Assembly (NCBI GenBank): GCA_031277915.1
Contig: JAITLL010000025.1
Coordinates: 1 to 40,363 of the forward strand
Reading direction: 5' to 3'
DNA: 40,363 nt
DNA from: Acinetobacter sp.
Lineage (GTDB): Bacteria > Pseudomonadota > Gammaproteobacteria > Pseudomonadales > Moraxellaceae
A model generated the notes under the pieces. It was not told the DNA's origin, made no database searches, and saw nothing but the letters and a program-made list of their open reading frames with translations. Both the position numbers and the translations under genes were made by a program. This document shows positions 4,710-6,027 of the stretch, one piece after another (within the stretch, counting starts at the first letter, position 1; each line of letters begins with the position of its first letter).

Positions 4710-4747
4710 TTAAAACGCCTGAAATAAAATTCTACGTGATTGAACTA

Positions 4748-4776
4748 AGCCACACCTTCGAGTGTGGTTTCTTTTT
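4748..4776 (+). terminator. Terminator after lpxO-like gene
   Basis: A CCACAC/GTGTGG stem closes a loop containing the stable TTCG tetraloop sequence and is followed by TTTCTTTTTG. It lies about 40 nt after the hydroxylase stop codon. Confidence 0.75.
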
Positions 4777-4796
4777 GTGTAAATTTTCTGCGAGGC

Positions 4797-4862
4797 CTCT
4801 GTGTCACAACAGACTTTAATCTTTTGCGCTGATTTAAAGTAAGAAACCATTGCAACACAGAG
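4797..4862. repeat. Nested inverted repeats
   Basis: The outer arms CTCTGTGT (4797–4804) and ACACAGAG (4855–4862) enclose inner arms ACTTTAA (4813–4819) and TTAAAGT (4834–4840). Both pairs are perfect. The structure ends 22 nt from the stop codon of the small lipoprotein gene on the minus strand, but there is no T-run on either side, so a simple terminator does not explain it. It could be a 3' UTR structure, a small RNA or an operator. No function can be assigned. Confidence 0.4.
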
Positions 4863-4884
4863 ATAAAGGAACTAAGCCAAACGC

Positions 4885-5169
4885 TTAGCCCAGACTACTT
4901 TTGTCACATCGCTGCATGGTGCTCAAAAAAGTAGGGGCAAAGTCCTGTGGGAGAACAGGACTTTGCAAACTGACATGTTCTAGGCGCTGCATGAGCTTGG
5001 GGGAGTAGGCTTGTTTAAGACGCTGGTAAATACATTCGCAACTAGTTTTGCTGTGCTCACCTGACAGGCAAATTTTTTCAAACTCCTGTTGCGTGTGTAA
5101 ATTGCAACCCGAAATATCCAAGCTACCTAGAACCAAACTAAAAGTTAAAATAGATTTATAAATTGTCAT
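4885..5169 (-). CDS. Small putative lipoprotein
   Basis: This 94-residue protein has a lipoprotein-type signal peptide (YKSILTFSLVLGSLDISGC) with the predicted lipidated cysteine at C22. The mature part is only about 70 residues and carries four further cysteines (C34, C44, C46, C88), with a CxC pair in SCECIYQ, suggesting disulfides in the periplasm. I recognise no domain, although the KICLSG...CECIYQRL layout resembles small cysteine-containing Acinetobacter proteins of unknown function. The gene is alone on its strand, facing away from the AT-rich region at 5170–5970. The reading frame has a convincing start and a plausible export signal, but a function cannot be given. Confidence 0.65.
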   Translation of the reverse strand: MTIYKSILTFSLVLGSLDISGCNLHTQQEFEKICLSGEHSKTSCECIYQRLKQAYSPKLMQRLEHVSLQSPVLPQDFAPTFLSTMQRCDKSSLG

Positions 5170-5360
5170 ATTATTCTCATAATGATTTATATCTATGAGT
5201 GGAGTAAAATATAATTTGTTTTAAATTTTAAAATAATTTTAAGGCAATAATTAATCCTTCCATAAAAAATGGGAAAATAAAATAATTGAAATTTTAAAAT
5301 AAAAGTAATTTATAAATTTAAAAAATAAAGGCGTAAAAACCCAAACTTTAAATAGAATAA

Positions 5361-5396
5361 TTAATTGAGAAAGAAAACGAGTTTGAATAATGGCAT
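5361..5396 (-). other. 11-codon mini reading frame downstream of structured RNA
   Basis: An ATG at 5396 (minus strand) is preceded at good spacing by AAGGAG, and encodes MPLFKLVFFLN before a stop. The Shine-Dalgarno bases fall in a short hairpin formed by ACTCC (5402–5406 on the plus strand) and GGAGT (5415–5419). In P1/P4-type phages a C4/CI antisense RNA controls translation of a short downstream gene (icd/ash type). This frame could be the truncated start of such a gene, or a leader peptide. The ribosome site and frame are visible; the rest is inference. Confidence 0.3.
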
Positions 5397-5399
5397 GGT

Positions 5400-5628
5400 C
5401 AACTCCTTAAAAATGGAGTCCTACCACCAGATCACCGTCAATTGATTATGGTGGTAGAACGAAAGGGGGTTAGCAGACTGGACTCGTAGAAACCAGCACG
5501 CGCGGGGCGTCCCCCTCCCGTCCTACCGCAAAGAAAAGGGGACGCAAGGGTCTAACGACTTATAGTAGAACTATAATCCGCTACGAGGTTACGGTCTGCT
5601 AAAACCGTCTGGCAATGTAGGCCAGCAA
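5400..5628 (-). ncRNA. Structured RNA, possibly C4/CI-like phage antisense RNA remnant
   Basis: A GC-rich block shows nested complementary arms. The outer arms are TTAGCAGAC (5470–5478) with GTCTGCTAA (5594–5602), then CTCGTAG (5483–5489) with CTACGAG (5581–5587). Inside are GCGTCCCC (5507–5514) with GGGGACGC (5538–5545), and TTATAG (5560–5565) with CTATAA (5571–5576). Separate hairpins are CTGGC/GCCAG (5609–5625) and CTACCACCA/TGGTGGTAG (5421–5457). A promoter at 5633–5661 points to minus-strand transcription starting near 5626. The layout (constitutive promoter, compact multi-stem RNA, then a ribosome site for a short frame) resembles the C4 RNA of phage P1 and CI RNA of P4, but I could not check this against a covariance model. 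Ends are approximate. Confidence 0.5.
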
Positions 5629-5632
5629 TGAG

Positions 5633-5661
5633 ATAATAATAGTTAAAATGAAAAGCGTCAA
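5633..5661 (-). promoter_or_regulatory. Sigma70 promoter of the structured RNA
   Basis: Read on the minus strand, TTGACG (5661–5656) is separated by 17 nt from TATTAT (5638–5633). Both hexamers match the sigma70 consensus well (5/6 each) and the spacing is optimal. Transcription would begin near 5626, at the edge of the GC-rich structured block. Confidence 0.65.
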
Positions 5662-6027
5662 TTATTAAAAAGGGTTTTTATTTAAAATAAATGTAGTTTA
5701 TTTTTTATTAAATTTTCTATTTTAAATATTATTTATAGAGATATTTATAATGTTTAAAAATTCTAATTAATCTAAAATTTTATATAAATACTTGGCCAAT
5801 TACAGATAATTACTCTGATTTTATAAGGGGAGGTCTTTGCCTCAATATTTATAGAAAGATTGAAGCGCCAGAATGGGTGTTTTTTATAAAATAAAAACGA
5901 TAGATTCATTTTGTGACTCACTTCACAGTGCTGGAAATTTGTTACAACTATTAAAAGCCAACATATAATTTTGGTTCTACAATTGCCCAGTTTTTTCGAA
6001 GACTGGTTAGCGCAAGTAGGTTTTACA

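Follow-up and report, generated by a model that had tools for sequence, protein, structure and literature searches.

A C4 antisense RNA in the leader of a lipoprotein-like gene of Acinetobacter sp., one of about two dozen cassettes with matched targets and loops

The DNA analysed here (the window) is a stretch of 40,363 nucleotides, positions 1-40,363 of contig JAITLL010000025.1 of Acinetobacter sp. GCA_031277915.1, whose genome is called the window genome below. Between positions 5400 and 5661, the minus strand carries a true C4 antisense RNA of the phage P1 type, which precedes a co-directional gene (4885-5169) coding for a small lipoprotein-like protein. We consider it probable (about 0.7) that the element is the 5' leader of this gene, with an embedded, self-addressed C4 RNA that controls it, and that it is one of about 24 non-relic cassettes of this kind. 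The features of the locus are listed below; a1 and b1 denote the target segments, a' and b' the complementary segments of C4, and ORF stands for open reading frame.

5633-5661, minus strand: sigma-70-like promoter (TTGACG, 17 nt, TATTAT), from the sequence and the TTGAC box in paralogous leaders
5609-5625, minus strand: 5' leader hairpin with a CUACAUU loop, the "Region 1" of the Group 1 small RNAs (sRNAs) of A. baumannii, after the motif given in PMC5320573
5594-5602, minus strand: b1, 9-nt target of b' (complementarity, duplex energies)
5581-5587, minus strand: a1, target of the a' loop; the two differ jointly in the A. nosocomialis copy of this site (locus L072)
5560-5576, minus strand: small leader hairpin (sequence, fold)
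5538-5545, minus strand: anti-C4 arm, which pairs with the C4 5' arm (5507-5514) and rivals the C4 main stem (sequence, folds)
5447-5533, minus strand: C4 antisense RNA domain (RF01695, Rfam)
5483-5489, minus strand: a' loop (specificity loop)
5470-5478, minus strand: b' segment
5421-5457, minus strand: downstream hairpin that re-uses the C4 3' arm, an alternative to the C4 main stem
5402-5419, minus strand: hairpin masking the ribosome-binding site (ACTCC/GGAGT) of the leader ORF
5361-5396, minus strand: predicted short leader ORF, MPLFKLVFFLN, 11 codons, in an icd-like position
5166-5180, minus strand: four-codon ORF whose stop overlaps the start of the lipoprotein-like gene, found in 4 of the 5 lipoprotein-type copies of the window genome (in one with a base change)
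4885-5169, minus strand: cargo gene, small lipoprotein-like protein of 94 residues (ORF, homologues in the genus)
4725-5862, no strand: inserted cassette of about 1.14 kb, which A. baumannii X4-300 and Acinetobacter sp. WC-141 lack at this site
4710-4724, no strand: left copy of a degenerate 15-bp direct repeat, within the terminator of the upstream gene (by eye)
5860-5874, no strand: right copy of this repeat (by eye)

In the Rfam scan of the whole window, the only match over the curated cut-off in this region is C4 antisense RNA, RF01695 (5533-5447, minus strand), with 59.9 bits for a cut-off of 45, an E-value of 2.9e-9 and coverage of positions 1-87 of the 87-position model. The preliminary description, made from the letters of the DNA, had guessed at a C4-type RNA, and the guess was right, since the Rfam match exceeds its cut-off and blastn reaches P1 and P7 at 76-77% identity over the C4 core. 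The significant match also rules out a new RNA family. The C4 main stem of the window copy begins with GGT, and the target upstream is complementary to a'b' over 7 nt for a1 and 9 nt for b1. The Rfam model of this target (c4-a1b1, RF03163) gives only a weak match just upstream of C4, 12.8 bits for a cut-off of 46.7, and was abandoned as a target finder: the targets are too divergent (none of its 14 matches in the window genome is over the cut-off), and at the same E-value limit 14 of 14 control genomes also match.

The RNA had been described as a GC-rich block with its own promoter in an intergenic desert. The block does stand out from AT-rich surroundings (GC 0.52 across 5400-5599, 0.185 and 0.19 in the flanks), and the minus strand from 5630 to 5400 folds with a computed energy of -86.5 kcal/mol, against a mean of -67.3 for dinucleotide shuffles (standard deviation 4.5, n = 200; z = -4.27, none of the 200 equally stable); the stretch is not empty, however, the block being the 5' leader of the gene 4885-5169. 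At least six perfect arm pairs had been reported, and each of those listed is present: 5470-5478 with 5594-5602 (9 bp), 5483-5489 with 5581-5587 (7 bp), 5507-5514 with 5538-5545 (8 bp), and the hairpins at 5560-5576, 5421-5457 and 5609-5625. They cannot all coexist, because the stem 5507-5514/5538-5545 competes with the main stem of the C4 domain, and the pairs that were read as an outer stem exist but are the antisense-target pairing of a1b1 with a'b'. The promoter (TTGACG at 5661-5656, 17 nt, TATTAT at 5638-5633) is present as well. It is weak evidence by itself, because seven such sites were counted where shuffles contain 4.0 on average, and the claim that the RNA has its own promoter is upheld only by the conservation of the TTGAC box at the equivalent position in paralogous leaders.

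In P1 and P7, C4 acts on a second, downstream target, a2b2. The organisation of the window element is that of the C4-icd-ant operon of these phages (P7, AF503408, targets by eye) in that a1b1 lies upstream of a C4 with matching a'b' and a small ORF, icd in P7, lies downstream. It differs from it in three ways: in P7 the second target (b2, a2) overlaps the ribosome-binding site of icd, whereas none was found in the window copy; the 11-codon ORF and the lipoprotein-like gene, which has no Pfam or PHROGs family, take the place of icd and ant; and the element is chromosomal and belongs to a set of about two dozen copies whose addresses differ.

Another related system is the CI RNA of satellite P4, a processed antisense RNA that pairs with targets in the leader of its own transcript and stops expression of the operon.

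The C4 of the window is not the solo RNA that had been proposed. The window genome contains 26 C4 matches, 25 of them over the cut-off. In 22 of the 26, a gene in the same orientation comes next; it codes for a TetR-family regulator in 17 cases (Pfam for two copies, similarity search for the others) and for a lipoprotein-like protein of about 94 residues in five, including the window's. All the copies that can be tested thus have a cargo gene: the remaining four are L001 and L019, at contig edges, and L018 and L026, tandem relics upstream of L002 and L005, which were left out of the leader alignment and of the duplex, fold-switch, address and terminator analyses. The gene starts 357-414 nt after the C4 start (364 nt in the window copy); in four TetR copies (L006, L007, L020, L023) the listed ORFs start at +269 to +296, and the start codons were set by hand to the aligned position. 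The leader, about 600 nt from the promoter to the TetR start, can be aligned over 18 copies (the 17 TetR copies and L001). Conversely, 17 of the 20 TetR matches with E<1e-30 in this genome have a C4, two others are contig-end fragments and one, C40:4289, has none. We note that the latter (C40:4289-4828), which has no C4 match upstream, is a TetR of the same subfamily, with 64% identity to the query.

A. baumannii X4-300 shows the same association, with 19 C4, of which 14 precede a TetR gene, three a lipoprotein-like gene and two neither (the targets of L108, one of these two, look prophage-type by eye). In the reverse test, C4 is found 280-319 nt upstream of 14 of the 15 TetR matches with E<1e-30 and of none of the 11 weaker ones. 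Across the genus, with stricter filters, C4 occurs in 102 of 120 genomes; 12 of them, including the window genome, have 19-26 copies, two have 15 and 10, and the others at most 8. The best C4 locus was available for 9 of the 11 other high-copy (at least 19) genomes, and a TetR gene lies downstream in 9 of 9. In the few-copy genomes, among the loci listed, the gene after the best C4 codes for another small protein of secreted or membrane type, or else the best C4 is part of a prophage-like locus, a label assigned by protein family search for L045, L049 and L053 and by eye, from ORFs or targets, for L044, L047, L050, L051 and L108. A homologue of the lipoprotein-like gene exists in 44 of the 120 genomes, and C4 is over the cut-off in 17 of the 20 homologue loci scanned, out of 30 fetched (L133, L137 and L147 lack it).

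The C4 of each copy is complementary to the leader in which it is embedded. Over 24 copies of the window genome, the duplex between a'b' and the copy's own a1b1 has a mean energy of -25.7 kcal/mol, against -15.2 with the leaders of other copies, and none of 100,000 permutations reaches this self-match; the a part and the b part, taken separately, each exceed all their permutations. The same holds in X4-300 (18 copies, L108 left out): -26.1 for self and -15.9 for non-self, the best of 50,000 permutations giving -20.9. These RNA energies are predictions, computed like the folds on fixed segments, and the permutation tests ignore the relatedness among copies. Pairs of a and b addresses are all distinct, in 24 of 24 copies of the window genome and 19 of 19 of X4-300. 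The longest complementary run is at least 6 nt for a1:a' in 72 of 73 elements and at least 7 nt for b1:b' in 73 of 73, G-U pairs being allowed and short runs including chance matches.

Evidence that holds independently of the relatedness problem comes from sites shared between genomes, where target and loop change jointly. The window's cassette is also present in A. nosocomialis NIPH 2119, at the corresponding site and with 90.5% identity over the element; between the two (L014/L072), a1 and a' differ jointly, while the C4 stems in between are little changed. In the pair L017/L119 (window genome and X4-300, both flanks in common, TetR 77% identical), a1 changes with a' and b1 with b'. L021/L123, in the same neighbourhood, are also jointly different. 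Other pairs are of different kinds: L002/L114 and L005/L110 share both flanks and look like swaps of the whole cassette, a2 being altered as well, along with b1, b' and b2 in the case of L002/L114; L023/L125 have the upstream flank alone in common, and the TetR of L125 is nearest to that of L020; L004/L116 have retained one address. The preliminary description took arms that drift without compensatory changes as an argument against a functional RNA; in same-site pairs, both sides change together.

Regarding the fold of the leader, most copies switch in the computed structures when their target is covered. In 25 leaders (the 24 of the window genome and L072), holding a1b1 unpaired, which mimics the cover by C4, raises the mean probability of the C4 fold from 0.04 to 0.47; it goes up in 19 of the 25 and down in none. 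Control blocks no wider than this, placed at two other positions, each produced an increase in 1 of 25 leaders. At the same time, the predicted opening of the ribosome-binding site of the leader ORF decreases from 0.18 to 0.06 (lower in 14 leaders, higher in one). For the window copy, the C4 probability is 0.20 free and 0.85 blocked, and the lowest-energy fold of 5630-5400 is the anti-C4 form.

The same family of RNAs has been described in A. baumannii AB5075, where 21 Group 1 C4-like sRNAs were reported in 2016 without a proven target (PMC5320573); they share with the window element the Region 1 hairpin and the C4 regions. According to the same source, they are well expressed, with higher coverage from a GGW site, and RNase P cleavage at GG(W) was inferred for them. 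The probe of ABUWs042, which was detected by Northern blot, matches the X4-300 copy L116 at 25 of 26 nt and copy L004 of the window genome at 24 of 26. By analogy with these copies, the window element may also be expressed and processed. As far as the accessible text of PMC5320573 goes, Group 1 is treated as sRNAs with variable targets, and neither the downstream genes nor the matched change of a1 and a' are discussed.

We propose that the transcript starts near 5626 and would carry first the target (b1, a1), then the C4 domain with the complementary b' and a'. When there is no free C4, the target would pair with its own a'b', the anti-C4 arm would tie up the C4 5' arm, and C4 would remain mostly unformed. 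A mature C4, released by an RNase P-like cleavage, would cover the a1b1 of a new transcript, whose own C4 could then fold and be released in turn; in the covered transcript the ribosome-binding site of the leader ORF would be closed and the downstream gene would stay off. As the a/b address differs from copy to copy, the cassettes should act mostly independently. The repression of the cargo, the feedback and this independence in vivo are what we infer from the pairing and from the folds. The evidence points to a target for the C4-like RNAs of A. baumannii: every RNA would act on the leader that it comes from and, in this way, on the gene that follows. The family itself was known; what is new is the organisation as a cassette, the matching of the addresses and a likely connection with stochastic TetR switching, to which we return below. 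With some two dozen distinct natural antisense/target pairs, a single genome would also offer a collection of largely orthogonal RNA switches ready for use.

Several observations weigh against this proposal. Self is the best match of its row in only 16 of the 24 copies of the window genome (18 of 24 for the a part alone), and 16 of the 552 non-self pairs come within 2 kcal of self or do better. Six of the 25 leaders have no fold switch. In the window copy itself, the lowest-energy fold of the 249-nt leader is already the C4 form, and the ribosome-binding site is nearly closed in both states (0.07 and 0.01). The downstream target a2b2 is not found there by the run-length rule (b2 is TTGACGG, where b' needs TTAGCAG), and a local hairpin covers the ribosome-binding site where P7 has a2b2. 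By the same rule, a2b2 is found in 21 of 29 loci of the genus, 5 of 19 of X4-300, 2 of 24 of the window genome and 0 of 1 of A. nosocomialis. The lipoprotein-like gene starts about 280 nt past the end of C4, with AT-rich sequence in between, and this interval has no terminator-like hairpin, unlike 12 of the 17 TetR copies: a hairpin of 12-14 bp lies ahead of the TetR start in 11 of them and one of 8 bp in L011. Among the five lipoprotein-type copies, L021 has a terminator-like hairpin of 9 bp. Overall, a stem of at least 7 bp is present in 13 of 22 elements when 0.4 are expected from mononucleotide shuffles. Last, each of the two genomes, the window genome and X4-300, has one strong TetR match without C4.

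The alternative that survives best, although we regard it as unlikely, is that of the preliminary description: C4 would be the relic of a lost prophage or satellite, a solo immunity RNA that represses incoming phages with a matching target. The element is indeed a true member of the C4 family, and in L045 and L053 C4 lies in a phage context, preceded by an Ant-like gene and followed by a small ORF and a replication-initiation gene (it may be that C4 guards the replication genes there, rather than ant). The window C4 pairs with both targets of the prophage-like locus L044, at -20.5 and -22.8 kcal/mol, which is 1.9 and 2.6 standard deviations beyond a background of mean -14.9 (standard deviation 3.0, minimum -25.6), its own leader giving -23.9; for four of the 24 C4 of the window genome (L009, L010, L017, L025), the best of 16 prophage-like targets is a partner no weaker than the copy's own leader. 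These pairings leave room for an immunity in trans. On the contrary, the RNA is not solo, all 22 testable copies having a cargo gene, and the a' loop tracks its own leader. Matches in phage records do not help this interpretation either: blastn of the element against 50,697 records matched 42, of which 28 are from Acinetobacter, all named MD-2021a (an apparent mislabel), and 14 are from enterobacterial phages, P1 and P7 included, and confined to the C4 core. A phage origin of the cassette was therefore not retained from the phage collections, which gave no match besides these two groups.

The "Acinetobacter phage MD-2021a" contigs (CAKLQF02..., CAKLQH02..., L105) look like a mislabelled bacterial assembly: the stretch inspected carries fabB, hcpC and a Rhs/Vgr gene. 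These records distort phage searches in Acinetobacter.

Another possibility, which we find somewhat less credible still, is that the a' loop has been retargeted, each C4 being a trans-acting sRNA on unrelated host mRNAs; in PMC5320573 such a role is called potentially more likely. The loops do vary among copies, and the RNAs are well expressed in AB5075, but each loop still fits the leader of its own copy (in the run counts given above, which have no chance control), and same-site pairs change on both sides. In two interactome papers searched by term, no mention of C4 antisense RNA was found in PMC11472050, and PMC12802169 gave no hit for "antisense" (the term "C4" itself is not searchable there). 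Both the solo immunity RNA and the retargeted sRNA are rejected as the main explanation on the grounds given for each. Lastly, a non-functional or purely selfish cassette, whose leader would ride with mobile cargo and regulate nothing now, is very improbable, because drift would break a1:a' and b1:b' when both sides in fact change together, and because the leader, the ribosome-site hairpin and the cargo frame are kept among paralogues, even though the cassette is present at this site in one of 12 named genomes only, and is flanked by a 15-bp repeat, and even though two tandem C4 relics (L018, L026) exist in the genome.

If C4 leaders are self-addressed switches, they may bear on a phenomenon described in A. 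baumannii, the stochastic activation of TetR-type regulators. According to the accessible part of PMC9802203, the TTTR family comprises 11 TetR regulators and one pseudogene, with similar HTH regions; during phenotypic switching, four of them become active stochastically. SrvS, an sRNA encoded on a plasmid, is also reported. This part of the paper does not mention C4 leaders, and in the literature searched, which leaves most subscription papers outside, we found no report joining C4 RNAs to TTTR regulators. We compared approximate positions in the two published tables, taking the 21 Group 1 sRNAs as 18 clusters and 1004.7 bp per locus number, a rate derived from one locus of known place. All 12 TTTR loci have a Group 1 cluster no more than 25 kb away, when random sets of 12 give a mean of 2.5 and a maximum of 9 (20,000 draws). 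With tighter windows, 5 of 12 lie within 10 kb at 1004.7 bp per locus (59 of 20,000 draws as good) and, at 1000 bp per locus, 7 of 12 lie within 8 kb (matched by 0 of 20,000 draws), but these rates and windows were chosen after the fact, and 1018 bp per locus, for which no null was drawn, gives worse distances. This suggests that the C4-led TetR genes are the TTTR regulators of A. baumannii; the window copy is unlike them in that its cargo is the lipoprotein-like gene.

It is possible, and we offer it only as a tentative idea, that C4 leaders are individually addressed, self-reinforcing RNA switches, and the missing heritable element behind the stochastic, combinatorial activation of TTTR and the phenotypic heterogeneity in the A. 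baumannii group. Off would breed off, the cover by C4 producing more C4, and on would breed on, the leader folding on itself and the gene being expressed. The switches would number about two dozen, each with a different address; most would precede a TetR gene, and an intrinsic terminator would often lie immediately before the gene. This would be a candidate mechanism for the activation reported in PMC9802203, whose accessible part does not explain its cause. If true, a phage lysogeny switch would have been multiplied into a bank of bacterial bet-hedging switches.

Regarding the cargo, the lipoprotein-like protein has no family in Pfam, PHROGs, PADLOC or PDB sequences, and its single match in NCBIfam, PatX, is below the cut-off (15.5 vs 30 bits). 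Its AlphaFold model is helical, with a mean pLDDT of only 60.9 from 5 sequences. The gene has six matches in viral contigs, none of them farther than about 1.6 kb from a contig end, a position suggestive of host flanks. As for the TetR cargo, the L010-type protein matches phrog_21633 (unknown function) over nearly its full length, with E = 3e-35; either these regulators may be phage-derived or phrog_21633 may include mislabelled records.

Regarding mobility, a 15-bp direct repeat from the neighbouring terminator flanks the cassette, 13 of 15 positions being identical in L072 and 11 of 15 in the window (by eye); it resembles a target-site duplication. The ORF list of the cassette contains no recombinase-sized gene, and the search of X4-300 gave no clean empty site for the L011 and L020 cassettes. 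Among the 12 named loci compared at the window's site, one has the cassette and seven have other ORFs. This gap, between an aspartyl/asparaginyl hydroxylase gene and an amidase-like gene (4710-5874 in the window, L070-L081), varies by species: it is nearly empty, or contains C4 with the lipoprotein-like gene, a 347-residue protein, two small genes or some other gene.

C4 also occurs in tandem arrays of two or three copies, at L018, at L026 and at G083:C1:255684-256181, which resemble the ABUWs066-069 cluster of AB5075. Last, we note that the X4-300 record (3.97 Mb) is filed as a plasmid, and that the A. baumannii records NZ_CP064203.1, NZ_CP077849.1 and NZ_CP104448.1 (3.7-4.1 Mb) are filed in this way, the first of these three behaving like a chromosome in our searches.
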